In this document: in pieces, positions 21,187 to 37,202 of the stretch
Layout: each line of letters opens with the position of its first letter
How positions within the stretch are numbered: the stretch's first letter is position 1
IMG/VR virus record: IMGVR_UViG_3300034418_011087
Location: 1 to 37,571 of that record
DNA: 37,571 nt
Direction: 5' to 3' (one strand)
From: a virus
Notes under the pieces: generated by a model
What the model was told of the DNA's origin: nothing
The model's input: the letters and a program-made list of their open reading frames with translations, nothing else
Databases searched by the model: none
Program-made: the position numbers and the translations under genes

Positions 21187-22113
21187 ATGGTAAATGAACT
21201 ACTTGTTAATCTAGTTGATTCTGTCTTAGGTGCAGGGAAAAGAACAGCGAGGGGCAATAAAGCTTATCACTGTCCTTACTGCAACCACCATAAACCTAAA
21301 CTAGAAGTCAATTTCACCCAGCATAAAAAAGGATATAATCCTTGGCATTGTTGGGCTTGTGATAAAAAAGGTAGTCGTATATCTCAAATCTTTAAAAAAG
21401 TAGGAGCATCATCTGAAAAATTTGAAGAATTAACCAAACTTATAGGTTCAGAAGTTGAATACAAACAAGTAACTACTTCTACAGAACTAAAACTTCCCGA
21501 AGAATTTAAACCAATTATAGGTAGTCGTGATATTGTAGCACGTCATGCTTTTGCTTATCTTAAAAATAGAGGCATTACAAGAGATGATATTGAAAAATAT
21601 AATATTGGTTATTGCGAATCAGGTCGATATGCTAAAATGGTTATTATTCCATCTTATGATGAAACAGGAAAATTAAACTATTTTACAGGTCGTTCATTTG
21701 AAAAGGATCCTTATGTAAAATATCGCAACCCAGAAACATCACGTGACATTGTACCATTTGAATTGTTTATAAACTGGAGTATACCGCTTATATTGTGCGA
21801 AGGACCATTTGATGCCATAGCCATTAAAAGAAATGCTATCCCGCTATTAGGCAAAAATATACAACAAAATTTAATGAAAAAAATCGTCACATCTGAAGTT
21901 GAAAAAATCTATATAGCTTTAGATACAGACGCCCAAAAGCAAGCCCTCAAGTTTGCTGAATATTTTATAAATCAAGGTAAGGAAGTCTATTTTATGGACT
22001 TAGATGGGAAAGACCCGAGTGAAATGGGATTTGAAAATTTCACAAAACTAATTCAAAAAACGTTTCCAATAGATCAATATGGTTTGATGGAAAGGAAGCT
22101 ACAACTACTATGA
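21187..22113 (+). CDS. 61: DNA primase, T4 gp61-like
   Basis: 308 residues, close to T4 gp61 (342). The N terminus has a zinc-binding domain with C29-P-Y-C32 and C55-W-A-C58, followed by a linker and a TOPRIM domain with E205 in LILCEGPFDA, the DxD at D246/D248 in ALDTDAQ, and FMDLDGKDPSEMG (269-281). It makes the RNA primers for lagging-strand synthesis with the gp41-type helicase. The stop overlaps the start of the nuclease gene (ATGA), so the two are translationally coupled. Nothing appears missing. Confidence 0.88.
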   Translation: MVNELLVNLVDSVLGAGKRTARGNKAYHCPYCNHHKPKLEVNFTQHKKGYNPWHCWACDKKGSRISQIFKKVGASSEKFEELTKLIGSEVEYKQVTTSTELKLPEEFKPIIGSRDIVARHAFAYLKNRGITRDDIEKYNIGYCESGRYAKMVIIPSYDETGKLNYFTGRSFEKDPYVKYRNPETSRDIVPFELFINWSIPLILCEGPFDAIAIKRNAIPLLGKNIQQNLMKKIVTSEVEKIYIALDTDAQKQALKFAEYFINQGKEVYFMDLDGKDPSEMGFENFTKLIQKTFPIDQYGLMERKLQLL

Positions 22114-22883
22114 GTAAGAGAAACATTAAAAAGTCTTACGATCGTATCTTAGAAATTTCTGAAGATGCCAAGCAAATTACAATGCCTGATTCGCGCTATT
22201 ATAGACGAAATGGCGAATATTACCCCTCAGTAACTTATGTTTTAGGAACTTACCCTAAAGGTAAGTATTTTGAAGACTGGCTAAAAAAAGTAGGTTATTC
22301 ATCTGAATATATTGTTAAAAAAGCAGGGGAAGAAGGTACACAAGTTCATGAAATGATTGAAGCGTATTTAAACGGGGAAGAATTAAACTTCTTAGGTCCT
22401 CATGGTCGCCCCTTATATCATCCAGATGTTTGGCAAATGTTTTTACGTTTTGTTGAATGGTGGGAAGAATACAATCCTATACTAATCGAAACTGAAGTAC
22501 ACCTATTTTCAGATGAACTTAAAGTAGCAGGTACTTGTGATATGGTTTGTGAGATTGATGGTGAACTTTGGATTATCGACTTTAAAACATCTAATAATCT
22601 ACAAACAACATATGATTTACAGGCAGCTGTTTATGGTCAAATGTATAAAGAATGTTATGGTAAAGAAGCAAACCGCTATGGTATCCTTTGGTTAAAATCT
22701 AACAAACGTAAGGGTGCAAGTGGTAAAATGCAAGGTAAAGGATGGGAAATGTATGAGTCATCTCGTTCACAAGAAGAAAATCTTGATATTTTTAAAACAG
22801 TTAAAAAATTGTTTGATTTAGAAAACCCAACCCATAAACCTATTTTTACCCAATTTAAAACGCAAGTGAAACGAAAGTTGTGA
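22110..22883 (+). CDS. PD-(D/E)XK nuclease, RecB/Cas4-like
   Basis: 257 residues. Motifs in order: GTQVH with H80, GTCD with D144, IDFKTS with D157 and K159, and a QAAVYGQ helix with Q171, the standard RecB-nuclease arrangement. Before these, YYPSVTYVLGTYPKGKYFEDW forms the helical N-terminal part common in exonucleases of this clan. No cysteine cluster for an iron-sulphur site is evident (C143, C147, C182 only), unlike Cas4/AddB. It is coupled to the primase gene and probably acts in recombination or DNA end processing. Confidence 0.85.
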   Translation: MSKRNIKKSYDRILEISEDAKQITMPDSRYYRRNGEYYPSVTYVLGTYPKGKYFEDWLKKVGYSSEYIVKKAGEEGTQVHEMIEAYLNGEELNFLGPHGRPLYHPDVWQMFLRFVEWWEEYNPILIETEVHLFSDELKVAGTCDMVCEIDGELWIIDFKTSNNLQTTYDLQAAVYGQMYKECYGKEANRYGILWLKSNKRKGASGKMQGKGWEMYESSRSQEENLDIFKTVKKLFDLENPTHKPIFTQFKTQVKRKL

Positions 22884-22904: not shown

Positions 22905-23708
22905 ATGATTTCACTGACACGACTTTTAAAGGAAGTTCAAGGTAACCCAAAAGCTATAATCCTTGCTGGCGCCCCTGGTGCTGGTAAGGGTTCTATCTTG
23001 GGGGATTTAGATTTATCGGGGTTAAAAATATTCAATTTAGATGATACTATTTTAGCTTTAGCAAAAGCCGAAAAATTTTCACTAAATCAAAAAGATACAG
23101 ATGCTGAAAACAGAAGTGCTTTTATGAAGGCAATGGCTGCAGCAACTAAAAAACTTAAAGGAGAACAAATCCCTACAGCAATCGCTAATAAAGATTCATT
23201 TATCTTAGATGGCACGGCTGCATCAGCTAAACAAACTCAATTATTAGTTGACCAATTAAAGGAAGCTGGCTATGATATAATGATGTTATATGTTTATACG
23301 CATCTTGAAACGTCTCTAAAACGCAACGAACGTAGGTTCGAGAAGAGTGGTGGTGAAGATAGAAGTTTAATGCCAAGCGCTGTATACAGAACTTGGATTG
23401 ATGTAGCTAAAAATTTTGAAACTTACCAACAAATGTTTGGTAATAATTTTGTATCTGTTTCAAACTTAGGTAAAGATGAAACAATGAAAGATGTAGAAAA
23501 AATTCTAAAAACCTACATCGATCCATTTAAACCAACAGATGCTAAACCTAAAACTGATAAGGAAATAGCTAGATCTAAAAAACAATCTGAAGAATTAAAT
23601 AAAGAAATCCAAGATTTCTTAAATTCAGATAAAGTCCAAAATATTATTGATAATTCAGTGTCTAAAGAAGAGGCACAATCAAAGATAACATCATTTGTAA
23701 ATGGCTAA
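22905..23708 (+). CDS. P-loop kinase (zeta-toxin/polynucleotide-kinase-like) with N-terminal tag
   Basis: 267 residues from ATG 22905 (a TTG one codon earlier is less likely). A Walker A motif GAPGAGKGS (22-30) follows the hydrophobic strand KAIILA. NLDDTI and a FILDGTAAS strand suit a nucleoside/polynucleotide kinase fold, and RNERRFEKSGGEDR may be the arginine-rich lid. The C-terminal 70 residues are Lys-rich and helical. The first ten residues (MISLTRLLKE) precede the kinase strand and end in an LxE tripeptide, like the tags on later proteins. The 3' end overlaps the next gene by 8 nt. Substrate unknown; a zeta-like toxin is an alternative. Confidence 0.75.
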   Translation: MISLTRLLKEVQGNPKAIILAGAPGAGKGSILGDLDLSGLKIFNLDDTILALAKAEKFSLNQKDTDAENRSAFMKAMAAATKKLKGEQIPTAIANKDSFILDGTAASAKQTQLLVDQLKEAGYDIMMLYVYTHLETSLKRNERRFEKSGGEDRSLMPSAVYRTWIDVAKNFETYQQMFGNNFVSVSNLGKDETMKDVEKILKTYIDPFKPTDAKPKTDKEIARSKKQSEELNKEIQDFLNSDKVQNIIDNSVSKEEAQSKITSFVNG

Positions 23709-26700
23709 AACAATCGCAGCATACGGAGGTGGATTCAAACCACCCACAGCAGGTCATTTTGAAGTAGTAAAACGTGCTTTAGAACAATTCCCTGAAATAG
23801 AGGAACTTACAATTTATGTAGGTGGTGGTGAACGTGATGGTATTACTCAAGCTGAAGCTGTTTTAATTTGGGAAATTTATCAATCATACCTTCCAATGAA
23901 GGTTAAAATTGAACCCTCAAAAGCCCCTATTGGGGATATTATCCGTTTAGGTAAAAATAATCCACAAGACAAAGTTTACTTTGTAATTGGAGCTCGTGAA
24001 AAAAATGAAGGGGATCTAAAAGATATTGAATCACGTACTAAGGGGGTTGAAGAAAAATACCCTAATATGGAGATTAAAATTATTCAAACACCTGGAGGAG
24101 GTATGAGTGGTACTAATGCTCGTAAAGCCGCTAAAGTATCTGCTGAAGAATTTTACAAATACCTACCCTCAGAATTAACAGATGAAGAAAAACAAGAGGT
24201 TTACGATATTGTAAAACCTATGGTAAATGAAACACTTTTACCTTCTGCTTCTGATATTAAAGCTAAATTTAAAGATTTAATATTTGCTGTAAAACAACAA
24301 GGTGGAGATGCTAAAAAAGCACTTGTTATGTTAGTTAAAGCCGCTAAAGGTGAAATTGATCTAACAGATGATGATAAAGCATTTATTAAGTTGCAATTAA
24401 AAGATGCTCTTAAAGCTGTTTTAGGAACAGCTATATTTGCTCTCCCAGCAGGTTCATTAGTATTGCTCTTGCTTAAAGCTATTAAACTACATGGGTTAGT
24501 AATCCCAACCGCATTCCTAAATGAAAGATTAGAGCCATATAAGTTTAAGGTATTATTTTTAGAAAATGAAGATAATACTACAAGATATACTTTTACAACA
24601 AACCAGGGTACCGAATATTTAGTAGATTTAGTTAGAAAACCTAAAACTGAAGTAAAAATTGAATATGGTGCTATTAAAGAAGGTCAAAAATCTTGGGTTA
24701 AACCTACTAACGAAGGTGAACCCCTTAAAGTTATCTCTACCGTAACTGAAATTATTAAAGAGTATTATGTAAGTAATCCTAATCTTGAAGTTGTAAAATG
24801 GAAAGCAACTAAGGGTAAAAATAATACTAAAGTTGATAGTCAAAGAGACAAACTAAACATTAAATTCTTCCAGAGAGAAATGCCTGGGATTAAAGTAGTT
24901 CATGAAGGTCAAGAAACAAGAATTATCTTACCTAAATTAAATGAAAATGCTACTTATTCTAAAGACATTGACATTATAGAAAAATGTGCTGCCTTAACAA
25001 ACCACATGCGTGAAAAAGGATACAAGATTGATCCTTTACCTTCGATTGAATTTGTTAACGGTGATACTGAAAATGCTAGAGATTTCTTTGGTAAAACAGC
25101 ATATTACGATCCAAACGAACAAAAAATTGTTTTATATACTGAAGGTCGTCATCCTAAAGATATTGTTCGTTCATTTGCTCACGAGATGATTCATCATGTG
25201 CAAAATCTTGAGGATCGTTTAGGTAATATTACAACAACAGATACAACTGAAGATTCTAATTTAGAGGATATCGAAAAAGAAGCATATCTAAATGGTAACA
25301 TCTCATTCAGAAACTGGACTGATAGTCTACAGGAAAAGAAAAAGAAAGATCCATTTGGTTTAAATCAATATGCTCGTGAATTAGCTCAGGGTTTAGAAGA
25401 ATCATTAAATGAAGGTCGTTACGATAGTATTTCAAGACAATTAGCTTCAATTGCTCTTAATTCTTGGAAAAGCGATTTCAAAGATGGAGCAAGCTATGGA
25501 TATTTTGTGGGTGAAATTACTCCTGAAGAATATCCAACGGATTTAACATTTACATTTAAAGCATTAGGTCGATTTGTAGATGGTCCTTACAAGCACAACG
25601 GTTATTCAAGATCAGATGGTGAAGTAGGAGTTAAATATGAAATTCCAAAAGATTCTATCCCTCAAATTTGGGAAGAAGTTTATATGGATTTAATTTCTAC
25701 TATTCGACATGAAATTGAACATCAAACCCAAGGTGGTAAAAATGTTAAACCTGGTAAAGGAATGGCTTCTGACCAAGAATTAAGAAAATTAATTCAAAAA
25801 GGAGGAAGTGATTTAGTAGCATATGTTACTCTACCTAAAGAAATCGAATCAAACGTTCAAGGTTTATATCTTAAAGCTAAAAAGTGGAGACGTCCTTATG
25901 ACGAGATAGCTGATGAATATATTAAGGATTTCCTTAAAATCACCAACCCAGCTGATGTAAACTATGTTAAAAATAAATGGCAAGAAGTAGCTAAAAAACG
26001 TAATCTACCTAGTTTATTAAATGAAGGTCGTTACGATGCTTTTGTAAATAAATTGTCTCGAATCGTATTTGAAATGTTTAAAGACATTCACGATAGAGGA
26101 GATAAAGAAGGTGAATTTGAATTTAGAGTAGACCACCCAGATGAAGAACACGATATCCCATCTGAAGATTTTTACTTTGATCTAGCAGGTACAGTTAAAA
26201 TTACTGATGATGAATACATGGTAGATGGGGGGGCAAATGCTGGATTTGATGATGAAGGAGAAGAAATTACTCCAATGCTCGCAGTTAAATTTAAAATCCC
26301 TAAAAACCCAGATTGGCAAAAAGTATCTTTTGATATTAAAGATGTTGTAAGACACGAGCTTGAACATTTAACCCAAGATGGAGAAAACGTTAAAGGTGTT
26401 GTAATAGATCCTAAAGATCCAAGATTAAATAGACCTGGTAAGCAAATGGATGATGATCAAACAATTAGAGATTTAATTGATCTTGATTTATTGCCTAAAG
26501 CAGATTACTTTAGATTACCTAAAGAAATAGATGCTATGCTTCAAGGTCTGTATTATAAAGCTAAAAAATCTAGAACTCCATTTAAAGATGTAATTAATAA
26601 TTATCTTGATACTCAACCCATTAATGATGAGGAAAGAGAAAATATATTAAAAGTTTGGAGAAGCAGAAATAAGGCCTTATCTTTACCATTATTCGAAGAA

Positions 26701-27183
26701 CTAGAAGAAATGGAATACGAGATTTACTCCGATATGGACGGGGTTATTACTGATTTTGATGCTCAATTTATGAAAGCTTCTGATGGCATTCGTCCTTCAG
26801 AATATGAGCGCAATATGGGTAAAGATGGATTTTGGGAATTAGTAGATGGTAAAGGTGTAGGTTTCTGGGTAGGGATGCCTTGGATGCCTGATGGTAAACA
26901 ATATTGGGATTATATTAAAGAATACAATCCTATTTTATTATCATCACCCTCAAGATCAAATACTTCACGTTTAGGAAAACGTTTATGGGTTAGAAACCAA
27001 CTACCAGGAACTAAATTAATTTTGGCTCAAGCTAAAGATAAACAAAACTATGCTCGTAAAAATCGTATCTTAATTGATGATCGTCCTTCAAATATTGATG
27101 AATGGCGCTCACAAGGCGGTATTGGGATTTTACATACCTCAGCATCAAACACTATTAGACAGTTAAAAGAATTAGGATTATGA
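23701..27183 (+). CDS. Multidomain cargo polyprotein: nucleotidyltransferase, LETM1-like, three metallopeptidase-like domains, HAD phosphatase
   Basis: 1160 residues. 1-176: nucleotidyltransferase with GGGFKPPTAGHF (H19) and MSGTNARKA (135-143). 178-275: LETM1-like segment (LTDDDKAFIK, LPAGSLVLLLLKAIK). 276-415: unrecognised. 416-571: metallopeptidase-like, HEMIH 494-498. 572-775 and 776-1003: duplicated domains opening GRYD, with HEIEH (670-674) and HELEH (885-889), then a shared LPKEI...QGLY..KAKK block. 1004-1160: HAD phosphatase, DMDGV with D1011 and D1013, and ILIDDRP. The tripeptide LNE occurs at 273-275, 413-415, 569-571 and 773-775, each time at a domain boundary, and LEE at 1001-1003 before the HAD domain. 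T4-type prohead proteases cut after (L/I)xE, so processing into separate enzymes is plausible. Domain calls are by motif. Confidence 0.75.
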   Translation: MAKTIAAYGGGFKPPTAGHFEVVKRALEQFPEIEELTIYVGGGERDGITQAEAVLIWEIYQSYLPMKVKIEPSKAPIGDIIRLGKNNPQDKVYFVIGAREKNEGDLKDIESRTKGVEEKYPNMEIKIIQTPGGGMSGTNARKAAKVSAEEFYKYLPSELTDEEKQEVYDIVKPMVNETLLPSASDIKAKFKDLIFAVKQQGGDAKKALVMLVKAAKGEIDLTDDDKAFIKLQLKDALKAVLGTAIFALPAGSLVLLLLKAIKLHGLVIPTAFLNERLEPYKFKVLFLENEDNTTRYTFTTNQGTEYLVDLVRKPKTEVKIEYGAIKEGQKSWVKPTNEGEPLKVISTVTEIIKEYYVSNPNLEVVKWKATKGKNNTKVDSQRDKLNIKFFQREMPGIKVVHEGQETRIILPKLNENATYSKDIDIIEKCAALTNHMREKGYKIDPLPSIEFVNGDTENARDFFGKTAYYDPNEQKIVLYTEGRHPKDIVRSFAHEMIHHVQNLEDRLGNITTTDTTEDSNLEDIEKEAYLNGNISFRNWTDSLQEKKKKDPFGLNQYARELAQGLEESLNEGRYDSISRQLASIALNSWKSDFKDGASYGYFVGEITPEEYPTDLTFTFKALGRFVDGPYKHNGYSRSDGEVGVKYEIPKDSIPQIWEEVYMDLISTIRHEIEHQTQGGKNVKPGKGMASDQELRKLIQKGGSDLVAYVTLPKEIESNVQGLYLKAKKWRRPYDEIADEYIKDFLKITNPADVNYVKNKWQEVAKKRNLPSLLNEGRYDAFVNKLSRIVFEMFKDIHDRGDKEGEFEFRVDHPDEEHDIPSEDFYFDLAGTVKITDDEYMVDGGANAGFDDEGEEITPMLAVKFKIPKNPDWQKVSFDIKDVVRHELEHLTQDGENVKGVVIDPKDPRLNRPGKQMDDDQTIRDLIDLDLLPKADYFRLPKEIDAMLQGLYYKAKKSRTPFKDVINNYLDTQPINDEERENILKVWRSRNKALSLPLFEELEEMEYEIYSDMDGVITDFDAQFMKASDGIRPSEYERNMGKDGFWELVDGKGVGFWVGMPWMPDGKQYWDYIKEYNPILLSSPSRSNTSRLGKRLWVRNQLPGTKLILAQAKDKQNYARKNRILIDDRPSNIDEWRSQGGIGILHTSASNTIRQLKELGL

Positions 27184-27386
27184 GCCATTTAAAAACATTA
27201 GCAGGAGGATACAAAGAAAATTCTCCTAGAGTTCGTAGTGAACATTCAAAAAAACCTTTTGTAGATACTAGTATTAAAATGATTAATGCTCAAGAGCTAG
27301 CTAACAATATTAAATTATGGGCTAGTGAGGGTAGGTTATCTTCTGAAGACATCCAATTAATTATATCTGAATTACAAAAATTATAA
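27180..27386 (+). CDS. Small hypothetical protein
   Basis: 68 residues. The N-terminal 30 residues are basic and probably extended (SHLKTLAGGYKENSPRVRSE). The C-terminal half forms two helices (INAQELANNIKLWASEGRL, then SEDIQLIISELQKL). No cleavage-like tag. It overlaps the stop of the polyprotein gene (ATGA) and shares TAATG with the zinc-ribbon gene, so all three are translated together. Function unknown. Confidence 0.65.
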   Translation: MSHLKTLAGGYKENSPRVRSEHSKKPFVDTSIKMINAQELANNIKLWASEGRLSSEDIQLIISELQKL

Positions 27387-27958
27387 TGAGTGATAATGTT
27401 TTAAAAAAAGAGTTTTCTAAACAAGATGTTACCCGTTTACGAAATCTAGTACAAGGTAAATATGGAGATAAAACTCAACAAAGTGTAGGTTATACTAAAT
27501 CTCAAGAATTTCATTCTGAAGGAGATGTTTGGGAAGAAGATGGTCGTAAATGGACTATTAAAAATGGTATCAAACAAAACATTACAAAGTTAGATAAAGC
27601 AAAAAAGGCACACGTAATGCCTATTTTTTGTCCTAATTGTAAAAATGTAATGAAAAAACGTTTTGATAAGGATTATTATAATATCCATAAAAAATGTTTT
27701 GATTGTGTAATCGAGTTTGAACACGATTTACGCAAAGCAGGTTTATACGAAGAATACGAAAAAAATATCCGCAATGCTGATATTGATGGGTTTATCAAAG
27801 ATTTTAAAGCATACGTTGAAGATGAATTAACCCAAAATAACTCATCATTTGTTACTGAAGCTGGAGATGTTGAAAAGTGGGTTGGTGGTCTGAATGAAAA
27901 ACGTGTATTAGAGGCATTAGACAAAACTATAGAACATCTCGAGAAAATGAAAAAGTAA
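27386..27958 (+). CDS. Zinc-ribbon protein
   Basis: 190 residues. Two cysteine pairs, C82-P-N-C85 and C104-F-D-C107, form a zinc ribbon between a basic N-terminal region and a helical C-terminal half (FEHDLRKAGLYEEYEKNIRN). The pattern recalls small zinc-ribbon proteins of T4-like cyanophages with unknown function. The C-terminal piece after G-G-L-N-E (LNE at 169-171) is a separate short helix (KRVLEALDKTIEHLEKMKK), so this protein may also be trimmed by the proposed protease. Coupled to the gene before it. Confidence 0.7.
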   Translation: MSDNVLKKEFSKQDVTRLRNLVQGKYGDKTQQSVGYTKSQEFHSEGDVWEEDGRKWTIKNGIKQNITKLDKAKKAHVMPIFCPNCKNVMKKRFDKDYYNIHKKCFDCVIEFEHDLRKAGLYEEYEKNIRNADIDGFIKDFKAYVEDELTQNNSSFVTEAGDVEKWVGGLNEKRVLEALDKTIEHLEKMKK

Positions 27959-27968
27959 CAGATTTTCG

Positions 27969-27984
27969 TATATTTATAAATAAA
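27969..27984 (+). promoter_or_regulatory. T4-like late promoter motif
   Basis: An exact copy of TATATTTATAAATAAA (TATAAATA at 27975-27982), 7 nt before ATG 27992. The expected leader is about 4 nt. It heads the run 27992-31479. Confidence 0.65.
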
Positions 27985-27991
27985 ATCTACA

Positions 27992-28438
27992 ATGTCTGAC
28001 TTTAATATTCATGCTTGGAAAAAAAATCAATATCTTGCTGAAGCAGGACTTGGTAGCTCTCAGGCACAATCCTTAGCTAATCTTATTAATGATGCTATTA
28101 TGCAAGTAGATGAGTCTCTATCTTATAGAGACTTTGCTATTGCTGTTGGTATCGTACTTAAAGAAGAGTATGGCTCTCATAACTTTGGAAAGTTTATGGA
28201 AGTATTACATGCTGAATTAGGTATAGAAGAATCTATAAACGAAGAACAAGCTTACGATACATACAAAGTACACGTTGTTACTTCTGATCCTTACGAAGGT
28301 GGTCCTGATGAGTGGTTTGATCATGAAGTAAAGGTAGATTCTTCTTTAACTGGTGACGATATTAAAGCAAGTATCAAAGATACTATCTATGATATGGGTT
28401 ATAGACATTTGTACAAACTCAATTACGAGAAAGCATAA
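27992..28438 (+). CDS. Tagged two-domain hypothetical protein
   Basis: 148 residues. The N-terminal tag MSDFNIHAWKKNQYLAE ends in LAE (15-17). Residues 18-80 form a helical domain (SLANLINDAIMQVDESLSYR, then GKFMEVLHAELGIE). ESINE is followed by a second, alpha/beta domain (about 85-148: YDTYKVHVVTSDPYEGGPDE, then a KASIKDTIYDMGYRHLYKL helix). An IxE tripeptide (INE) separates the two domains, so the protein may be a mini-polyprotein. No enzyme motif. It is the first gene behind an exact late motif and shares its stop bases with the next gene. Confidence 0.65.
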   Translation: MSDFNIHAWKKNQYLAEAGLGSSQAQSLANLINDAIMQVDESLSYRDFAIAVGIVLKEEYGSHNFGKFMEVLHAELGIEESINEEQAYDTYKVHVVTSDPYEGGPDEWFDHEVKVDSSLTGDDIKASIKDTIYDMGYRHLYKLNYEKA

Positions 28439-30603
28439 TGGAAGATATTAAAAAAATACAAGAATTCTTCTCTAAACCTTTAGAAGAAAATTCCTTTAAA
28501 AAAGGTGATAAAGTAACCTATTTGGGAAACCCAGCCGAAATCACTTTCGTAGGCAAAGACCAAATGGATAGAACATATTATAGTGTATCCTACGATAAAG
28601 GTAATGGTAAAACTAAAGCATCAAACCTTTATAACAAAGGTGGTGAAATTAAACCTTTAAACGAGGGAAGCGAAAATATAGATGTTGAAGACTTTGCTAA
28701 AGTAGTTCAAGCAATCAGCCAAACAAACCACCCCGTAACTGTATTGTTAACTCCAATTTTTGGAAAAAATGAAATCGAAATCATTGTAGGTAATGATGCA
28801 CCCGATCCTATTGTTGATGATATGTTTAATATAATAGCTGACTTAGGATACAAACGTGGGGAGTATAGTATAGTAGGTGATACATCTAGTTTATCAAGAA
28901 GAGAATATTCCCAAATTCGTAGAATAAATGGTGGTCATAAAGATTACCAACGCTGGGAAGAATCGGTAAACGAAATGGATATCAATGACCCAGTCTTAAT
29001 GAAAATGAGAGCTGCTAAAGATAAATTAGCTAAAAAAGGAACAGATAATACTAGTGGTGATCCTAACGACCGTTTCTTTAAGAAGAATATGGATAGACTA
29101 AAAAAGTTAGATGCTTTAAAGAAAAAACGCGCTCAAATTATGCGCGATATGGAACAAGAAGCTGAACCCGAAGGTGGCCCAATCGCAGACAAGTATGGTG
29201 ATATGCTTAACAAAATTGATAAAGCAATTGATCTACTTTCACCCCAGAAAAAAGGGGATGAATATATGTCTAAGGATGAAATTGAAAGACGAGCAGCAAT
29301 GATTCAAGATCCTTACGCTAATTATATATCACAAGTAAATGCTATGTTTGGTTTAGAAGAAAACAAACCGGTAGCAAACCCCAACAAACACATTAAAGGA
29401 ATCCAAATTCAATTAGATCAATTAGGTATTAAATATGAAATGGATCCTAAAAATAAAGTCCAACCATTCAAAGTAATTTACAAACCAGTAAATAAAGATG
29501 ATGACTTTTATGATAAATTTGATGATATTGTATTCAGATACAATCTTAAAGGTGTTGTAAAAACATCAATGAGTGAAGCTTCTAAAGAAGAAGAAACTGA
29601 ATTTCATAAAAAATTAGATAAATTAGTTCATAGCACTTTCGGTAAAAGAAAAGACGAACTAGAAGAAGGCGCTGTTGAAATAATGGATGCTTATAATCGT
29701 ATTTTAGATTTACTTAAAAAAGAATCTCGTGCTTTAAATGATGACGATTCATATGCTTTAGGTTTAAAATTAAGAGCATGGTTTGAAAAGAATATTATAA
29801 ACGAAGATTCTAAAGGTGCTTTAAATTATTTTAACGATTTAAAATATTATTATCAAAAAGCATTTAGATATCTAGATGTTAAAGAAAGAGAAGAATATAA
29901 ACAATTAGCTAAAGATTTCTTTTCTAACTTACAAATTGACGATAAAGTTAGAGCTGTTGGTTTAGAAGAAAATGATCAATTAACCGAAGCTTACGTTCCT
30001 CAAAACATCAAAGAATTTGCTAAAAGAAAAGGTGTTTCACGTTTAGTAAACACTGTAGCAGGTTGGGCTGAAAAAGTAGGCGCTCGTATTACTGGTGGAA
30101 CTGCTATTGGTAAATACTATAATACTCTTATTTTAGATTTAGGTTATCAAACCGGTGACATTCGTATCGATTGTGATGAAGAAACAGTTGAATTATATTA
30201 CGAACCAGTAAACAGCTTTGCTGAATTTAAAAACGTGTTTATGGAAGAAGAAAGCCGTAAACAAGCTGAACACGATGAAGAAACTTTACGTCGTGAACAA
30301 GGTTTAGAAGAAGGTGCTTCAACTGAAGAGAAAAAAATTGCTCAACAAGCAGTTAATAGAATTGCCAAATACAGAGGCGTAGGTAAAGATGAAGCCAAAA
30401 ATGATTTAATTAGAGCAGCTAAAGAATTAGCCGAAACAATTAAATTAGGTGAAGGCGTTATCTACGAAGAACTTTGTGAAAAAGGCAAACGCTACATTAA
30501 AGCAAGACAAGCTGCTGGTGAAAAATCATCTGCTTACCTCTCAGGTCGTGCTGTTAGAGTATGTAAAGGTCAAATCGAATGGCCTAAAAAAGGAAAAAAA
30601 TAA
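28438..30603 (+). CDS. Mosaic protein of short modules separated by LEE/LNE sites
   Basis: 721 residues with no single recognisable fold. LxE tripeptides separate apparent modules: LEE 15-17, LNE 74-76, LEE 306-308, LEE 408-410, LEE 509-511, LTE 515-517 and LEE 623-625, plus VNE 177-179. Modules: 18-73 KOW/SH3-like (FKKGDKVTYLGNPAEITFVG); 77-179 alpha/beta; 180-305 helical, with DINDPVLMKMRAAKDKLAKK; 309-407 alpha/beta; 411-508 helical; 518-622 alpha/beta; and 626-721 ending ELCEKGKRYIKARQAAGEKS and YLSGRAVRVCKGQ, a C-terminal motif I recall from phages. The first 17 residues look like the targeting tags. It probably encodes several small capsid-associated peptides. Confidence 0.65.
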   Translation: MEDIKKIQEFFSKPLEENSFKKGDKVTYLGNPAEITFVGKDQMDRTYYSVSYDKGNGKTKASNLYNKGGEIKPLNEGSENIDVEDFAKVVQAISQTNHPVTVLLTPIFGKNEIEIIVGNDAPDPIVDDMFNIIADLGYKRGEYSIVGDTSSLSRREYSQIRRINGGHKDYQRWEESVNEMDINDPVLMKMRAAKDKLAKKGTDNTSGDPNDRFFKKNMDRLKKLDALKKKRAQIMRDMEQEAEPEGGPIADKYGDMLNKIDKAIDLLSPQKKGDEYMSKDEIERRAAMIQDPYANYISQVNAMFGLEENKPVANPNKHIKGIQIQLDQLGIKYEMDPKNKVQPFKVIYKPVNKDDDFYDKFDDIVFRYNLKGVVKTSMSEASKEEETEFHKKLDKLVHSTFGKRKDELEEGAVEIMDAYNRILDLLKKESRALNDDDSYALGLKLRAWFEKNIINEDSKGALNYFNDLKYYYQKAFRYLDVKEREEYKQLAKDFFSNLQIDDKVRAVGLEENDQLTEAYVPQNIKEFAKRKGVSRLVNTVAGWAEKVGARITGGTAIGKYYNTLILDLGYQTGDIRIDCDEETVELYYEPVNSFAEFKNVFMEEESRKQAEHDEETLRREQGLEEGASTEEKKIAQQAVNRIAKYRGVGKDEAKNDLIRAAKELAETIKLGEGVIYEELCEKGKRYIKARQAAGEKSSAYLSGRAVRVCKGQIEWPKKGKK

Positions 30604-30896
30604 TGACAAACGAGCGCCTGCAAGAAATTATTCAAGAGTCATTGCGCGACTGGTTCAAAAAAGAGGACTGGGTGCGCATTGATACTCAAGGTAATATTAC
30701 TGGCCCTTGTGGTACTATGAAAAAAGGTGATGCAACTACTCGTTGTCTACCAAAAAAGAAAGCTCAATCACTAACTAAAGCGGAAAGAGCTAAAACATCT
30801 CGTAAAAAAGCAGCAGCATCTCGTAAAGGTAAACAATTTGTTTCCAATACAGATAAAGCAAAGTATAAAAAAGGAACATACCATAACAAGAAATAA
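30603..30896 (+). CDS. Basic DUF5872-like protein
   Basis: 97 residues, very lysine-rich in its C-terminal half (KKKAQSLTKAERAKTSRKKA, later RKGKQFVSNTDKAKYKK). The middle has GNITGPCGTMKKGDATTRCLP, matching the GPCG...RCLP pattern I associate with DUF5872 proteins of phages and large viruses. Two cysteines might bind metal. The N-terminal helix (ERLQEIIQESLRDWFKKEDW) resembles helices in neighbouring proteins. Strong positive charge suggests DNA binding, possibly to packaged DNA. The start shares bases with the preceding stop. Confidence 0.65.
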   Translation: MTNERLQEIIQESLRDWFKKEDWVRIDTQGNITGPCGTMKKGDATTRCLPKKKAQSLTKAERAKTSRKKAAASRKGKQFVSNTDKAKYKKGTYHNKK

Positions 30897-30897
30897 A

Positions 30898-31479
30898 ATG
30901 GGTACATTTGATTATAAATCATATATTGCTAATAATCCTCTTTTAAAAGAATTTGAGGACAATGGAGCTGAAGAAAAAGCATTTGATGCTGAATTAATGG
31001 CTACCGCTAATGGTATTGCTGCTACTTTAGGTAAAGAACTTAAAGCTAAAAAAGGAGATAAAGACCAATTAGACGAAGTTCTTGGTTCAGTTATTGCCGG
31101 TATTTTAACAGCTAATACATTAGTCAATTTTATCTCTAAAATGGCTGCTAAACTATTTAAAAAATTAAACTTTAAAAAAGGTGAAGATATCGCTGAAAAA
31201 ATTCATCATTGGGCTCACGATAACGAAACCGCCTTCCAAGCTCCAATCAAACGTGTTTTAGCTTTCTTTATTAAAGATGAAAAAAAATTAGATATGGTTA
31301 CTAAAGCATCCTATGCCATTGTGGTTGGTTTAATGGCAGCTGGTTACGGAGCAGAAGCAGTAGAGGGTTTATCTAAAGCCGATTGGTTTAAAGGAACTTT
31401 ATCTTCATTAAAAGCTGTTGCTAAGAGCGATGAAGCATTAGTTAACGCTTATCCAGCAATTAAAACCCTTATGGTATAA
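30898..31479 (+). CDS. Tagged protein with amphipathic/hydrophobic helices
   Basis: 193 residues from ATG 30898, one base after the previous stop; the frame is open further upstream, but that part overlaps the preceding gene. The N terminus MGTFDYKSYIANNPLLKE (1-18) aligns with MDNFDFKKYLAENRL and MDNFDLKKYLAEGRL of genes at 31520 and 35039. Hydrophobic helices at about 60-82 (VLGSVIAGILTANTLVNFIS) and 135-155 (ASYAIVVGLMAAGYGAEAVE) may insert into or bind a membrane, for example during DNA entry. No family recognised. Confidence 0.65.
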   Translation: MGTFDYKSYIANNPLLKEFEDNGAEEKAFDAELMATANGIAATLGKELKAKKGDKDQLDEVLGSVIAGILTANTLVNFISKMAAKLFKKLNFKKGEDIAEKIHHWAHDNETAFQAPIKRVLAFFIKDEKKLDMVTKASYAIVVGLMAAGYGAEAVEGLSKADWFKGTLSSLKAVAKSDEALVNAYPAIKTLMV

Positions 31480-31493
31480 GGTAAAATTTTTGA

Positions 31494-31509
31494 TATATTT
31501 ATAATAAAA
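31494..31509 (+). promoter_or_regulatory. Variant late promoter motif
   Basis: TATATTTATAATAAAA keeps the first eleven bases of the exact motif and replaces TATAAATA with TATAATAA. It lies 10 nt before ATG 31520 and heads the run 31520-37202. Confidence 0.5.
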
Positions 31510-31519
31510 ATCTTATATA

Positions 31520-32638
31520 ATGGACAACTTCGATTTTAAAAAATACTTAGCTGAAAACAGATTACATGAAAACATGTTTGACGTTGCTACAACAGAGAAA
31601 ATTGCTCAAGCTGTAGCAGACGCGTTTACAGCTGACGATGAACTAGACCTAAAATATACAGTCCACCCAGGAACAGAAGAAAGTTCATTCGATCTTGATG
31701 TTGAGGCTGGTCCTAACACCCCAGGTGAAGATTGGAAAGATAAAAATGGATTTAGTATCGATAACTACCTTGGCGAATTTGCAGGTGGTTCTTTTTACAT
31801 CAAAGACGGAGTAGTATACAATGCTGCTAGCAGAAATGCTCCCGTTGCTAATGTATCACCAGAAGGTGAAGTTGAAATGATTTCAGCTGAAGAATCAAGA
31901 GCTGCCATTGATTCACAAGATGATATCCCAGCAATTGATAGAATGTATAACTCTGATGCTTGGGTGCAAGCTCAAAGAGATGCAATGGAAGAATCTAAAG
32001 AAGAAAAAAAATCAAATAAAATGAAAAAATCCGAATTAAAGGAAATGATCCGCACTGCATTCCTTAACGAAACAGAAGAAAAAGTTGAAGAAGGCACTTG
32101 GGCAGTATTGCCTGCTCGTATTCCTGAATTTATTCAAGCTGTAGAAGATCTTAAAGATGAATATCATGGTGTAGTAGGTAGTGATGATGTGTTTGATGGT
32201 TTAGACGCTGCTATTAGCGCTGCTGAAGAATTATTAATGAACACAGCTGAAATTAAAGAAGCTGAAGAAGATGAAGAAGAAGTAACTGTAGATGACACTG
32301 AAGAAATCGATGTTGATACAGATGCTGAAACTGCAGATGCAGGTGAAGTAGATGTTGAAGCCGATGCTGAAGTTGAAATGACAGGCGATAAAAAAGAAGT
32401 TCAAGACAACTTACAAGCTGCTCTTGAAGCTGCTAAAGCATTAGGTGACCAAAAATTAGTAGACCAAATCGGTAACTCAATTACATTCTTTACTCGTACA
32501 CACGTTGTAGGTAAATCTGAAGTAGCTGAAGCTGATGTAGATGTTGAAGTAGATTCACCTGTTGAAGATGCTGAAGTAGGAATGAAATTAGATGAATCAA
32601 TCAACCGCATGAAAAAACTTGCAGGTTTAATTAAATAA
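31520..32638 (+). CDS. Tagged, acidic, core-like protein
   Basis: 372 residues. The N terminus MDNFDFKKYLAE ends in LAE (10-12). Residues 20-155 are alpha/beta (FDVATTEKIAQAVADAF, YLGEFAGGSFYIKDG). A helix KKSELKEMIRTAFLNE (169-184) ends in LNE. A helical region (193-240) is followed by a very acidic stretch (247-288, almost all E, D, V, A and T), reminiscent of prohead core/scaffold proteins such as T4 gp22 and gp67. The protein ends with MKLDESINRMKKLAGLIK, a short C-terminal signature I have seen in other T4-like phage proteins. Role in the prohead core is inferred from tag and charge. Confidence 0.6.
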   Translation: MDNFDFKKYLAENRLHENMFDVATTEKIAQAVADAFTADDELDLKYTVHPGTEESSFDLDVEAGPNTPGEDWKDKNGFSIDNYLGEFAGGSFYIKDGVVYNAASRNAPVANVSPEGEVEMISAEESRAAIDSQDDIPAIDRMYNSDAWVQAQRDAMEESKEEKKSNKMKKSELKEMIRTAFLNETEEKVEEGTWAVLPARIPEFIQAVEDLKDEYHGVVGSDDVFDGLDAAISAAEELLMNTAEIKEAEEDEEEVTVDDTEEIDVDTDAETADAGEVDVEADAEVEMTGDKKEVQDNLQAALEAAKALGDQKLVDQIGNSITFFTRTHVVGKSEVAEADVDVEVDSPVEDAEVGMKLDESINRMKKLAGLIK

Positions 32639-32643
32639 AAACT

Positions 32644-32814
32644 ATGAACACACAAGAATTAAAAGAAAAATTAGACGCATTGTACGAAACATTCTCAATG
32701 GAACACGAAGGTAAATCTAAAGCAGCTCATGGTAGAGCTCGCAAAGCGTTAGGTGAAATGAAAAAACTCGTAACCGAATATCGTAAAGCATCAGTTGCTG
32801 AAGATAAAAAATAA
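32644..32814 (+). CDS. Histone H1-like (Hc1-type) DNA-binding protein
   Basis: 56 residues: a short helix (TQELKEKLDALYETFSMEHE) and then the lysine/alanine-rich core KSKAAHGRARKALGEMKKLV followed by TEYRKASVAEDKK. The KAA-x-x-R-A-R-K-A-L pattern and its spacing match Hc1/H1-like proteins of Chlamydia and Bacteroidota (GNKAAGTRARK-type core). Such proteins coat and condense DNA. Here it sits 5 nt after the acidic tagged protein and 3 nt before the next tagged protein, so a role in packaged or incoming phage DNA is plausible. The assignment rests on a short but characteristic motif. Confidence 0.75.
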   Translation: MNTQELKEKLDALYETFSMEHEGKSKAAHGRARKALGEMKKLVTEYRKASVAEDKK

Positions 32815-32817
32815 AAT

Positions 32818-34548
32818 ATGCTTAACGAACGCAAACTTACCAAAGCTGAACTCAATAAAAGAGAAGATATCGTAAAAGATATGAAAAAAAACAAGCGTGC
32901 TTTAGTTAAAAAGTACGGTAAGGATGCTGAACAAGTAATGTATGGTCGCGCCACGAATATAGCAAAAAAACAAGCCGAAAGTATGAATCAAGACAAACTT
33001 AGAGAAATAATCAAAGATGCTTTAATGGGTCCTATGGTTGACCCTGAAGCAGGTGAAGACCAATATAAAGATGAGCAAGACCTTGCTACCGTATCTCATG
33101 CTTTAGACCAATTAGAAGCTAAATTAAAAGCTCACGATTGGTTTTACATGATGTCGGATGACCATAGAGCATACACTAATGGAAGACACGAACAAAGTGA
33201 AATTAGATCCATTATGAATGATCTTGAAGGCCTTGGATACGGTAAAGACGCTAAAGAATTATACAATCAATATGCTCCTTTCTCTGAAGGAGGTCCTGAT
33301 TTTAGAATGAAAGAAGCTAAAGGTAAAGATATGGACAAAGATGGAGACATCGATTCAGATGATTACCTAGCTGCTCGCGATAAAGCAATTAAAAAAGCAA
33401 AAGGCGAAATCAAAGAAGATTGGGGCAGTTCAGATCAATCAATCATGAACCAATCCATTCATAGAGATTTAGGTAACCCAACAGAATTCCCTGGTCTATC
33501 TCAAATTATGGATGCTGCTGAATCTGCAGTTGACTTTTATTGGGACGATTGGGATGAATATCAAACAGATAGAGAGGGTTTGATCATGTCTGCAGCTCAA
33601 AGATACGCTAGACAATACCACCCAGAATTTATGGCTAATGCTGCTAGAATGATGGAACCAATTGATGAAATGGACATCAATGGCCCAATAAGAGAAATAA
33701 GCGGAGATAAAGTAGAAGCCCTAATGGAGCTAAGAAATATCTTAGATGAACTTCAAGTATTAGGAGATCAAGCCAGAGATATTATCGCACAAAACTTCCC
33801 ATCTTACCTTAGTAAAGGAGAAGCATATGGTGCTTTTGATTTAGGTTCAAGCACAAACAGATACGATACTACAATTGCTTCAATCGTAGACGAAATTGAA
33901 GAATACGGTGAGGAAGAAGATGAAGATGAGGACATGATGCAAGAAGATATGGATCTTGGTCATCAAGATAATGAACCTCATATGTTAAAAGGTGACCTAT
34001 ACCGTATTGGAAAATACGCTATGGAATTATACCAAATGGTAGATGGTTTCGAAGGTCAAGGTGAAGTAGATTTCCCACATTGGTGGCAATCAAAAGTAAT
34101 CAAAGCTAAAGATTATTTAGTAGGCGCTAAACATTACTTAGATTTTGAAATTAAAGAACCTCAAATCGATGCTATGGTAGATGTTGCTCAAGATGTTGAA
34201 GCAATTGATGAAGCAGCAGGTAAATTTGTAGTTCGTCCTTGCTCTAATCCAGGTACACCATTTGCTGTATGGCAAACTTCTAAAGATGGAGAAAACGACA
34301 AGCGTATTGAAGGATTCAAAACTAAAGAAGATGCTCAAAAATTCGCTGATGAAAAAAATTCATTAAAAGAAGAAGAAGCAGGCGAAGCAGATATGGTAGC
34401 TTCAGATATCCAAAAAGCAATGAATGCTGTTAAAGGAGATGACGCTAAAACATACCAACTTCAACAAGCTAGAAAAGCAATGAACAAAGGTGATTTAGAT
34501 AAAGCTAAAAAAATCGCTGATCGAATTGCTAAAATGTTAAAAAAATAA
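32818..34548 (+). CDS. Modular protein with EF-hand-like loop
   Basis: 576 residues. It begins MLNERKLTKAELNKREDIVK, with an LNE at residues 2-4. Residues 5-55 are a basic helical module (NKREDIVKDMKKNKRALVKK, MYGRATNIAKKQAE). 80-165 is a helical domain. 171-182 (DMDKDGDIDSDD) fits the EF-hand calcium loop DxDxDGxIxxxD. 200-285 and 298-445 are acidic helical domains, the latter with HWWQSKVIKAKDYLVGA. 467-515 is a small alpha/beta module (KFVVRPCSNPGTPFAVWQ, FKTKEDAQKFADE). The last 50 residues are helical and lysine-rich. Junctions often carry (I/L)xE (IKE 198-200, IDE 282-284, IDE 463-465), in line with protease processing. No enzymatic motif found. Confidence 0.6.
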   Translation: MLNERKLTKAELNKREDIVKDMKKNKRALVKKYGKDAEQVMYGRATNIAKKQAESMNQDKLREIIKDALMGPMVDPEAGEDQYKDEQDLATVSHALDQLEAKLKAHDWFYMMSDDHRAYTNGRHEQSEIRSIMNDLEGLGYGKDAKELYNQYAPFSEGGPDFRMKEAKGKDMDKDGDIDSDDYLAARDKAIKKAKGEIKEDWGSSDQSIMNQSIHRDLGNPTEFPGLSQIMDAAESAVDFYWDDWDEYQTDREGLIMSAAQRYARQYHPEFMANAARMMEPIDEMDINGPIREISGDKVEALMELRNILDELQVLGDQARDIIAQNFPSYLSKGEAYGAFDLGSSTNRYDTTIASIVDEIEEYGEEEDEDEDMMQEDMDLGHQDNEPHMLKGDLYRIGKYAMELYQMVDGFEGQGEVDFPHWWQSKVIKAKDYLVGAKHYLDFEIKEPQIDAMVDVAQDVEAIDEAAGKFVVRPCSNPGTPFAVWQTSKDGENDKRIEGFKTKEDAQKFADEKNSLKEEEAGEADMVASDIQKAMNAVKGDDAKTYQLQQARKAMNKGDLDKAKKIADRIAKMLKK

Positions 34549-34551
34549 AAA

Positions 34552-35022
34552 ATGACCGCAAGCGAGTTAAGAGAAAAAATTAGGGCTATTATACCCATAG
34601 TATATAAAGCTCAACAGAAATCCGACGCTGCAGCCGTTGAGTACGATGAATTGACTAAATTCCCCGAACTCAAAGCGGTTATAGTCGATCTATTAACGTC
34701 GGATTTCGATTCATTCTTAGCTTCTATTGATTGGGTTGCTCCTCGTCCTACCACGTTTCGTATAAACTTAAAAAACGGACAGGAATTTTATCTTATCTAT
34801 AATAGCAGAAGTTGGATTGCTCAAGTTGAAGGTAAAAAGTATTATCTTTTAAATCTTCCTGAAGAAGAGCGTGCTGCTGAAGCAATTGCTCGTATATTAC
34901 GATATGGTGCTAAAACACCTGAAGGTGAAGGTGCTGATACTAGTGGAGCAGAAGATTTATCACTTGATACAGGCACTGAAACTGAAACAGAAACTGAAAC
35001 TGAAACAGATTTAGAAGTATAA
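34552..35022 (+). CDS. Small hypothetical protein with Thr-Glu repeat tail
   Basis: 156 residues. The N-terminal 110 residues are mixed helical/beta (ELREKIRAIIPIVYKAQQKS, PTTFRINLKNGQEFYLIYNS). The C terminus becomes Gly/Ser/Asp-rich and ends in an uninterrupted Thr-Glu run encoded by a hexamer repeat (34975-35010). The first part looks folded; the tail is disordered and strongly acidic. No targeting tag. Function unknown. Confidence 0.65.
   Translation: MTASELREKIRAIIPIVYKAQQKSDAAAVEYDELTKFPELKAVIVDLLTSDFDSFLASIDWVAPRPTTFRINLKNGQEFYLIYNSRSWIAQVEGKKYYLLNLPEEERAAEAIARILRYGAKTPEGEGADTSGAEDLSLDTGTETETETETETDLEV
34975..35010 (+). repeat. Hexamer tandem repeat ACTGAA/ACAGAA
   Basis: Six consecutive hexamers (four ACTGAA, one ACAGAA, one ACAGAT) encode the Thr-Glu tail of the preceding gene. 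In-frame length changes would only alter tail length, so this is a candidate variable repeat. Confidence 0.8.
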
Positions 35023-35040
35023 AATAAAATAAAATAAAAT
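35021..35040 (+). repeat. AAAAT pentamer repeat before a start codon
   Basis: Four exact AAAAT units run from the stop codon of one gene into the ATG (35039) of the next. A similar A/T-only ladder (about 35628-35642) precedes the TTG start at 35643. In a genome without Shine-Dalgarno sequences such A-rich, unstructured leaders probably promote initiation. Confidence 0.6.
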
Positions 35041-35623
35041 GGATAACTTTGATTTAAAAAAATATTTAGCTGAAGGTAGACTATTTAAAGAATCCATAAA
35101 TGAACAATTAACAAAAGGATTTAACCCAGGTGAAAAATACTTCTTACCTGATGACGGATATATGGCTGCTAAACTTCGTGCAGAAGATGGTTGGTATACT
35201 CCTAGAGCAGGTAAAGCCGGATACAGTGAAACACCAGAAGAACAAGCTTACCATACTATTAGGTATGAAATGGGAGTTAAAGATCCTGAAAAAACTAAAA
35301 ATTTTATTGCTGGGTGGATGAAATACAATCAAGAAGTACTTGATGGAATCACGAAACTTGTAGTTAATAAAGATCCCATACCAGATGAAAAAAGCAAAAG
35401 TGGTGTAATTTGGAATTGGGATGGAGATAGAAACTCTTTAGAACAAGTTCCACCTAAATTCAAATTAGCTGTAAAATCAGAATTTGAAGGTAAATTAAGT
35501 GATGAAGAATTCGAAGAGGCTTTTGACGGAATTAAAAACTTTTTTGCTGACGAGGCAGGTAGAGGTAGTAAAAAGTTCAACTCGGACGATTGGGCCGAAA
35601 TGATTGAAATGGACTACTTATAA
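35039..35623 (+). CDS. Tagged hypothetical protein
   Basis: 194 residues. The N-terminal MDNFDLKKYLAE is almost identical to the tag of the gene at 31520 and ends in LAE (10-12); a second (I/L)xE tripeptide, INE, follows at 20-22. The remaining body looks like one compact domain (PGEKYFLPDDGYMAAKLRAE, then HTIRYEMGVKDPEKTKNFIA and a C-terminal SDDWAEMIEMDYL). No known family or catalytic motif. The start lies at the end of a pentamer repeat. Likely another capsid-directed protein; function unknown. Confidence 0.65.
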   Translation: MDNFDLKKYLAEGRLFKESINEQLTKGFNPGEKYFLPDDGYMAAKLRAEDGWYTPRAGKAGYSETPEEQAYHTIRYEMGVKDPEKTKNFIAGWMKYNQEVLDGITKLVVNKDPIPDEKSKSGVIWNWDGDRNSLEQVPPKFKLAVKSEFEGKLSDEEFEEAFDGIKNFFADEAGRGSKKFNSDDWAEMIEMDYL

Positions 35624-35642
35624 TATAATAAAATAAAATAAA

Positions 35643-37202
35643 TTGGATCCAATTACAAAATATTTAAATAGGATTGCATATAAGTTTCCTAAAGGATATC
35701 CTGACATGAATAATGATCAGGATGTTTTGTTGTTGGAGACATTACTAAGTGAAATCGAATTCCCAGTAGATTTAAATGAAGTTTCAGAAGAAGACTCACC
35801 AAACCTCCCAGATGATATTCTACAATTAAAAGATGATATTAAATCTATTGTAGATAGTATAAGTAATGTTAGAGATGGTGGTACAAAATCTTCTTTTAAT
35901 TTTTATGTTAAAGGGATAGGTGATAGGGATAGGGAAGAAAGACGTAGCATTGCTCAAAAAATTACTCAAAATCTTCCTAAAGGGTATACTATAGGAGATA
36001 ATAATTTTACTAAAACTGATGAAGGTCCTTACTTTTACGTAACTATAGGAGATAAAAAATATAGAATATTTGTTAAAGGTCTAGGTAAAAGTCCATTTGA
36101 TACAGATACTGATCAAAAAGAAGGATTAGTAATTTTTATGTATAATATCCTTAATGCTGGAGAAAACTTAAAACCTTTTAATAAAGAAAATTTAGAATCT
36201 AATGTTGAAATTCTAAATAAGTCAATTGATAGTTCTTCTTTAACTGAAGGTATTGATAATAAAGCACTAGGGGCCATTAAATCCCTATTAACAGCCCTTA
36301 ACAACTCAGATCTAGACAAGTTCCCTGTCAATAAATTTAAAAACTTTAATAACCCATACTCTATTGCTCTCAAAATTAATCAAGATTATTCTGGTGAAAA
36401 AATCATTAGAGATGGAGCATTTAATGAAGCTAGAGCAATGGGTCAACAATTGTGTAAGATTCCGGCTGATAAATGGAACCCTGGAGACATTTATATTGAA
36501 ATAAACCCCCCAGGGGAAATGCCTAATAGTTTAGAGAGTTTAAATGGTTTGTTTGTAAATGATTGGGGTAGTAAAGATAGTGATTTAGTTTCAATCTCAC
36601 TTAAAGAATCTTCATCCCAACCCGGTAGAGCAAAATCCTATTTTAAAAACTTTACAACCTTAGATGGCAATTTAAGAGACCAAGAGTATAATCTAACCAA
36701 AGATGAATTAGAATGGGATCTTGATACTCTCCAACAAAATGTTAAGGTCCAACAAGATAAATTTGTAAAATTAGTTCAAGGAAAAGGCATTAAATTATCT
36801 GGTGATGGTTGGGATAAATTATTGGATGATGAAAAGCAATTAAAAGCTACTTATGGTTCTTTTAAATTAATAAACTTTTTATTAGATAATAGTGAAAGAA
36901 CTAATCCTCGTGATGCTATATTAGATTTAGTTAGCTATGGCTTATCCTTATCAGGTGTTAATCCTACTTTCTTTAAACTAAGAGGCACCAATGATGGATC
37001 AGCAGCCAACGACCCAGTTAAATTCCCAGCTGGTTCTACAACTTCTCTTAATGAAGATCCTGAAATTATAAACAGTTCAAAAGCTGGAGGATTTTTACTT
37101 AAAACTGTTATCAATACAGTTCAAGGAGGGGAAATCACAGATACTAAAAAATATTCTCATAGATTTAGAACATCGGGTGGAGACCAAATATCAATTGTAT
37201 AA
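35643..37202 (+). CDS. Large hypothetical protein with cleavable-looking N-terminal segment (TTG start)
   Basis: 519 residues starting at TTG 35643, which gives MDPITKYLNRIAYKFPKGYP; no nearby ATG precedes it, and a Met start 21 residues later would cut the conserved-looking KFPKGYPDM segment. The first 46 residues end in DLNE (LNE 44-46), so they could be a propeptide. A domain at about 84-165 has paired strands (SSFNFYVKGIGDRDREERRS and GPYFYVTIGDKKYRIFVKGL) with acidic residues and K140/K146 arranged somewhat like a PD-(D/E)XK core, but I cannot establish this. The C-terminal half is helical with no known motif. Confidence 0.65.
   Translation: MDPITKYLNRIAYKFPKGYPDMNNDQDVLLLETLLSEIEFPVDLNEVSEEDSPNLPDDILQLKDDIKSIVDSISNVRDGGTKSSFNFYVKGIGDRDREERRSIAQKITQNLPKGYTIGDNNFTKTDEGPYFYVTIGDKKYRIFVKGLGKSPFDTDTDQKEGLVIFMYNILNAGENLKPFNKENLESNVEILNKSIDSSSLTEGIDNKALGAIKSLLTALNNSDLDKFPVNKFKNFNNPYSIALKINQDYSGEKIIRDGAFNEARAMGQQLCKIPADKWNPGDIYIEINPPGEMPNSLESLNGLFVNDWGSKDSDLVSISLKESSSQPGRAKSYFKNFTTLDGNLRDQEYNLTKDELEWDLDTLQQNVKVQQDKFVKLVQGKGIKLSGDGWDKLLDDEKQLKATYGSFKLINFLLDNSERTNPRDAILDLVSYGLSLSGVNPTFFKLRGTNDGSAANDPVKFPAGSTTSLNEDPEIINSSKAGGFLLKTVINTVQGGEITDTKKYSHRFRTSGGDQISIV

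Follow-up and report, generated by a model that had tools for sequence, protein, structure and literature searches.

Why should several proteins of one virus begin with nearly the same short peptide and then continue into bodies that have nothing in common? We address this question for a 37.6-kilobase (kb) fragment of a virus record, IMG/VR record IMGVR_UViG_3300034418_011087 (37,571 nucleotides, the whole stretch analysed, here called the window). An initial annotation had likened these starts, which end in (L/I)xE, to the N-terminal capsid-targeting sequence of phage T4 and suggested a family of proteins loaded into the prohead; all six of the starts it quoted are present in the sequence. 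Comparison with related loci shows that, in a sizeable group of viruses that infect aquatic bacteria, more than 100 unrelated proteins carry the same short start, which most likely serves as a cut-off address label for head loading and delivery into the next host. The features of the window that carry the argument are as follows, with a slash for a known or predicted cut.

22905-22934, plus strand: short tag MISLTRLLKE/ on the zeta-toxin-like P-loop kinase 22905-23708
27992-28042, plus strand: W-type tag MSDFNIHAWKKNQYLAE/ on protein 27992-28438
28438-28488, plus strand: start MEDIKKIQEFFSKPLEE/ of the multi-module protein 28438-30603
30603-30638, plus strand: short start MTNERLQEIIQE/S of a small basic protein, with the same hydrophobic spacing before E12
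30898-30951, plus strand: divergent tag MGTFDYKSYIANNPLLKE/ on protein 30898-31479
31520-31570, plus strand: F-type tag MDNFDFKKYLAE/NRLHE/ on the 372-amino-acid protein 31520-32638
32021-32071, plus strand: second, internalised tag MKKSELKEMIRTAFLNE, residues 168-184 of the 31520 protein, recognised from relatives
32606-32635, plus strand: C-terminal motif RMKKLAGLIK of the 31520 protein, common to the C-terminus of the relatives' gp22-like scaffold
35039-35104, plus strand: F-type tag MDNFDLKKYLAE/GRLFKESINE/ on the 194-amino-acid protein 35039-35623

The mobile N-terminal tag reads MDNFDLKKYLAE(G/N)(K/R)L..E. A scan of IMG/VR for M..FD(F/L)KKY(L/F) gave at least 120 stretches, and a second viral scan for the R variant was pooled with the first and with other loci; the two pattern scans yield at least 280 distinct tagged proteins on at least 205 loci, counts that are conditional since the loci were fetched by pattern and most contigs are fragments. 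Among the matches listed, an in-frame stop lies no more than 30 codons before 265 of the 280 tags, i.e., the tag is a short peptide at the gene start, and at least 276 bodies fall into at least 125 unrelated clusters (87 of them singletons) with the tag alone in common, which bears out the claim of similar starts on unrelated bodies. When one member per cluster is aligned, only MDNFDLKKYLAExKLxxE is shared. The (L/I)xE ending holds as well: E occupies position 12 in 136 of the 144 matches listed, though the first pattern left it unfixed, and a second E site follows at positions 17-18. Positions 11 (A or V), 13 (G or N), 14 (K or R) and 15 (L) are likewise conserved, though the pattern did not fix them.

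For the strict tag, chance is excluded. A position matrix of the tag scores at least 5 on 178 of 2182 N-termini, versus 0.44 expected from internal windows (the loci being partly pattern-fetched), and in 16 tag-bearing records, about 1.9 megabases, the reversed pattern has no matches versus 33 for the tag. The tag is essentially absent from 257 gigabases of bacterial and archaeal genomes, with two matches. One, L269, is a contig of viral origin that was binned into a metagenome assembly and has the gene order of the other tagged loci; the second, L268, is an antisense chance match and was set aside, as were two further chance pattern matches, L026 (internal) and L109 (antisense). A tblastn search of named phages with the 20-residue tag found no match, the query being too short for such a test.

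A shared start of this kind could in principle be an expression cassette, i.e., a promoter, ribosome site and first codons spread by recombination, with no role for the peptide. Some neighbouring copies do share their upstream DNA (L072:7067 and 7700, 100%), and tagged genes stand in tandem in variable regions. However, among tagged genes within one locus the DNA identity is 0.87 for the tag and 0.33 for the following body, and the 40 bases upstream have a median identity of 0.43, against 0.375 for random pairs. Within the tag, synonymous divergence is high (proportion of synonymous differences, pS, 0.53), and the ratio of nonsynonymous to synonymous proportions, pN/pS, is 0.29 at codons unconstrained by the pattern. 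The tag is therefore no recently copied promoter-and-start cassette. Different peptides also substitute for one another with LxE kept, and we regard the cassette explanation as very improbable; judged by its substitution pattern, the tag is selected as a peptide.

Bodies known from behind the F-type tag recur behind other starts and inside polyproteins. Behind other starts, 54 of 57 joints carry (L/I/V)xE, versus 22% at random positions of the same proteins; inside polyproteins 46 of 55 do, versus 31%. At 1919 internal domain-shuffle junctions (L/I/V)xE is found 576 times versus 364 (z = 14), and it is the only one enriched of 17 (L/I/V)xX trimers. These joint tests, and the spacing tests given below, are independent of the residues fixed by the search pattern, but draw on the same contigs. 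At the level of sequence, the comparisons show an LxE rule at starts and joints, exchangeable tags and confinement to phages. The same code at internal polyprotein joints, and the larger scale, go beyond what had been noted before.

The window holds a clear example of such a polyprotein:

23701-27183, plus strand: 1160-amino-acid polyprotein with a cytidylyltransferase-like module, three HExxH metallopeptidase-like modules and a 5'-deoxyribonucleotidase

The deoxyribonucleotidase matches phrog_2643 (E-value 1.3e-21); the cytidylyltransferase and metallopeptidase matches are weak, with three HExxH motifs present. Module joints, placed from relatives, fall at E177, E415, E567/571, E775 and E999/1003, all of them LxE or VxE, and in the phage Immuto the parts are two separate genes (gp088 and gp087). 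A single frame at L093:4046-5074 contains two complete tags, at residues 1 and 89, two tagged genes having been fused in frame. Such fusions can leave a tag buried within a protein, as at L093:4046 and in the window's 31520 protein with MKKSELKEMIRTAFLNE at residue 168; seven relatives of the latter begin as separate proteins exactly at that tag.

The three HExxH modules of the 23701 polyprotein would also suit the idea that the tags load heads but stay uncleaved, or that another protease cuts, for example the metallopeptidase modules, for which autoproteolysis has been proposed in polyvalent proteins (PMC5512222). However, the LxE rule extends to small tagged proteins that have no protease module and it matches the capsid-protein site, and we consider this explanation doubtful.

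The individual tagged proteins of the window fit the same pattern. The starts of 31520 (MDNFDFKKYLAE), 35039 (MDNFDLKKYLAE) and 27992 (MSDFNIHAWKKNQYLAE) are at ATG codons; 30898 is an internal ATG in a frame that opens at TTG 30838, and the kinase ATG at 22905 lies one codon after TTG 22902. The C-terminal domain of the 35039 protein (residues 120-193) is elsewhere a stand-alone tagged protein, following the tag directly at L119:9834 and L066:4841. The body of 30898 is found elsewhere behind MDNFDLRKYLAEG.. or MKKSELVKLIKE (the latter in Immuto), in other relatives behind MDNFDLRKYLAEGRLYEE, or within polyproteins after LxE, as in L017, where it follows ...KKINKLNE in a 975-residue polyprotein. 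Most homologues of this body carry an FDL(R/K)KYL tag, which backs the weaker tag of the window, and the weaker tag of 27992 is likewise backed by relatives with MNQFNVHKWKNNQLLKE and MSEFNMSSWMKKQYLAE. The kinase body is joined as MISLTRLLKE/VQGNPKAIILAGAPGAGKG in the window versus an F-type tag, MNDFDFKKYLAEGRLLKE/AKGNPKAIILAGAPGAGKG, in L059. The start of 28438 (MEDIKKIQEFFSKPLEE) is reused with different bodies in L003 and L005; the T4 spacing of this start is inexact. Pfam and PHROGs gave no family at useful scores for 31520, 35039, 30898 or 27992.

How close is this to T4? In the T4 record, the internal proteins IPII and IPIII start with MKTYQEFIAE and gp24 starts with MAKINELLRE. Residues 4 and 7 of the T4 sequence govern targeting, residues 8 and 10 govern processing, and gp21 cleaves after L/I-x-E (PMC9026906). 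The corresponding spacing (hydrophobic 4, hydrophobic 7, aliphatic 8, E10) is found at 53 N-termini of the relatives versus 3.3 expected, most strongly with E10, and the exact spacing occurs in 0 of 223 non-head core proteins versus 96 of 2722 others. The kinase start MISLTRLLKE has it exactly (hydrophobic 4, 7 and 8, and E10). The F-tag fits once aligned on its E (L6, Y9, L10, E12), which holds for 31520 and 35039, and its YLAE matches FIAE of the T4 sequence, the peptides being too short for a homology test; for 27992, 28438 and 30898 the spacing is inexact. A gp21-type (S77) prohead protease is encoded in 14 of 14 tag-bearing records with a Gp23 T4-type capsid gene, and in 7 of 7 records of at least 138 kb. 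In a MAFFT alignment the T4 gp23 cut site FLTE/A lies opposite (V/I)xE in 5 of the 5 relatives aligned.

A tag that sends proteins to the tail tube, the baseplate or some other phage structure, or else to a site in the cell, with LxE a coincidence of the linker, would sit well with the position of the tagged block, which in the window also comes after tail and baseplate genes. This account is at odds with LxE being the known prohead-protease motif (PMC9026906) in phages that encode the protease, with a junction enrichment specific to E among 17 residues, and with an RM(K/Q)KLAG motif common to the scaffold, cargo starts and 31520 of the window, and we judge it distinctly unlikely.

The T4 parallel drawn by the initial annotation is supported by peptides that are N-terminal, LxE-ended, interchangeable and placed on unrelated bodies, in phages with a gp21-type protease; each of its predictions that was open to a computational test held. 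With high confidence we read the tag as a T4-type capsid-targeting propeptide, part of a T4-like targeting and prohead-protease code that is greatly expanded, with interchangeable tags and with polyproteins cut at their joints. What we infer is docking on the core, cleavage, packaging and injection, as well as what the bodies do. The hydrophobic N-terminal peptide would dock a new protein onto the gp22-like prohead scaffold core, the head would assemble around it, and the S77 protease would remove the tag after its terminal (L/I/V)xE and cut polyproteins at the (L/I/V)xE joints between their modules. The freed bodies would stay with the DNA and enter the next host by injection, where they would probably counter defences and take over metabolism or transcription. 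It is also reasonably likely that the cargo code is open, such that any frame behind an interchangeable tag is loaded into the head and the prohead protease splits polyproteins made of fused tagged genes into individual effectors for injection.

Several points weigh against the T4-type propeptide. The motif (L/I/V)xE is frequent, at 2% of positions, and single sites therefore mean little. Q and S at position 10 are also in some excess, and the F-type tag is two residues longer than that of T4. The head module lies past the end of the window, which leaves the window's own protease out of view. A literature search found no published virion proteome for Immuto, and an AlphaFold model of 30898 was too poor for use (mean predicted local distance difference test score, pLDDT, 52). 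The idea of the F-tag as an amphipathic helix was unsupported: it is not strongly amphipathic, unlike MISLTRLLKE.

The tagged genes of the window form a block, with these landmarks:

7141-9410: T4-type baseplate genes
21187: primase
22110-22883: exonuclease
22905-37202, plus strand: predicted cargo block, whole, after the exonuclease; next, by synteny, the terminase of the head module past the window end

The window is colinear with a relative, G002, over most of its length, and in both G002 and Immuto the matching block leads into the genes for terminase, portal, S77, scaffold and capsid. By synteny, the cargo block would thus lie just upstream of the head genes. Strict (L/I)xE sites number 29 in the block (22905-37202) versus 12.5 in shuffled sequence (z = 5.3), and 14 versus 13.5, i.e., no enrichment, in the region 540-22883. 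The plain (L/I/V)xE count of the block is only weakly raised (z = 1.6); the telling tests are the stricter site and the position-specific ones. Flavobacterium phage Immuto, isolated on Flavobacterium sp. LMO8, is a cultured relative whose capsid protein is 56% identical to that of G002; F- or W-type tags are found on its gp092, gp077, gp076 and gp069, the last adjoining the S77 protease gene (gp070).

Only 9 Pfam families are matched anywhere among the 125 body clusters listed, and none of the group's core proteins of replication, tail or head has a match among the F-tagged proteins. The recognisable bodies are the zeta-toxin-like kinase, a sigma factor, and the nucleotidase and metallopeptidase modules of the 23701 polyprotein. 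The sigma-70-type factor (L103:8509-9105; Pfam Sigma70_r4_2, E-value 1.9e-14, and r2, 8.5e-7) has an F-type tag and is accordingly predicted to be delivered from the virion.

The closest known system is that of T4 IPI, IPII, IPIII and the gp24 propeptide, where one N-terminal tag of 10-20 residues with an (L/I)xE end is carried by unrelated small bodies, a gp21-type protease is encoded, and the hydrophobic spacing is alike (Y4 F7 I8 E10 in T4; L4 L7 L8 E10 in the kinase). It differs in that the tag here has another consensus, a two-residue extension (MDNFDLKKYLAE) and several interchangeable types, is carried by more than 100 body families versus a few in T4, and also lies inside fusion proteins. 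The T-even internal proteins have themselves been described as a highly diverse defence set in which the capsid-targeting sequence alone is conserved (PMC3012670). The polyvalent proteins of phages and plasmids (PMC5512222), which are injected and built of multiple domains, likewise unite several unrelated enzymatic modules, metallopeptidases among them, in a single late-gene product, but here prohead-protease-type sites stand at the joints and the same modules are also separate tagged proteins. In phiKZ and SPN3US a gp21 relative cuts inner head proteins after a short motif ending in E (PMC5694885, PMC10052503), but those propeptides are mostly longer than 100 residues and share no single short tag. 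A region of P1 DarB, too, sends cargo into the head for injection (PMC9024508), but in a single large anti-restriction protein without a shared tag family.

The principle is thus already known; the new elements are the tag consensus, the scale of its use, the existence of several tag types, and polyproteins whose module joints carry protease-type sites. The tag sequence itself was not found in the literature searched. Proteins injected from the head are difficult to recognise, since their bodies are unrelated and mostly uncharacterised. In a widespread group of aquatic phages, a readable tag would reduce the hunt for those that counter defences or take over the host to a pattern search, besides offering ready packaging signals for protein delivery. 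If the open cargo code is true, hundreds of injected effectors, a virion-borne sigma factor among them, could be listed by reading sequences.

Some further observations were made on these loci. The motif RM(K/Q)(K/M)LAG(I/L) occurs at the ends of the gp22-like scaffold and of the window's 31520 protein (window 32606-32635; L134:2203-3150 and other loci) and also opens many small proteins as ..LRMQMLAGIITE/S, with 46 cases versus none for two scrambled controls; it is possibly a second core-binding tag. Tagged proteins gp082 and gp077 of NC_055915.1 (in L160) are annotated as 'tRNA(Ile2) agmatinyltransferase' and 'cob(I)alamin adenosyltransferase', which look like mislabels. The capsid gene match in G025 (150626-152065) reads through one TAA stop, which may reflect an intron, recoding, a sequence error or gene decay. 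G027 (268,739 bases) has two capsid genes and two S77 proteases in a single contig, and may represent a doubling of the head module or a join between two phages. Three transfer RNA genes (Arg tct, Ser tga and Thr tgt) lie at 111-429 of the window.

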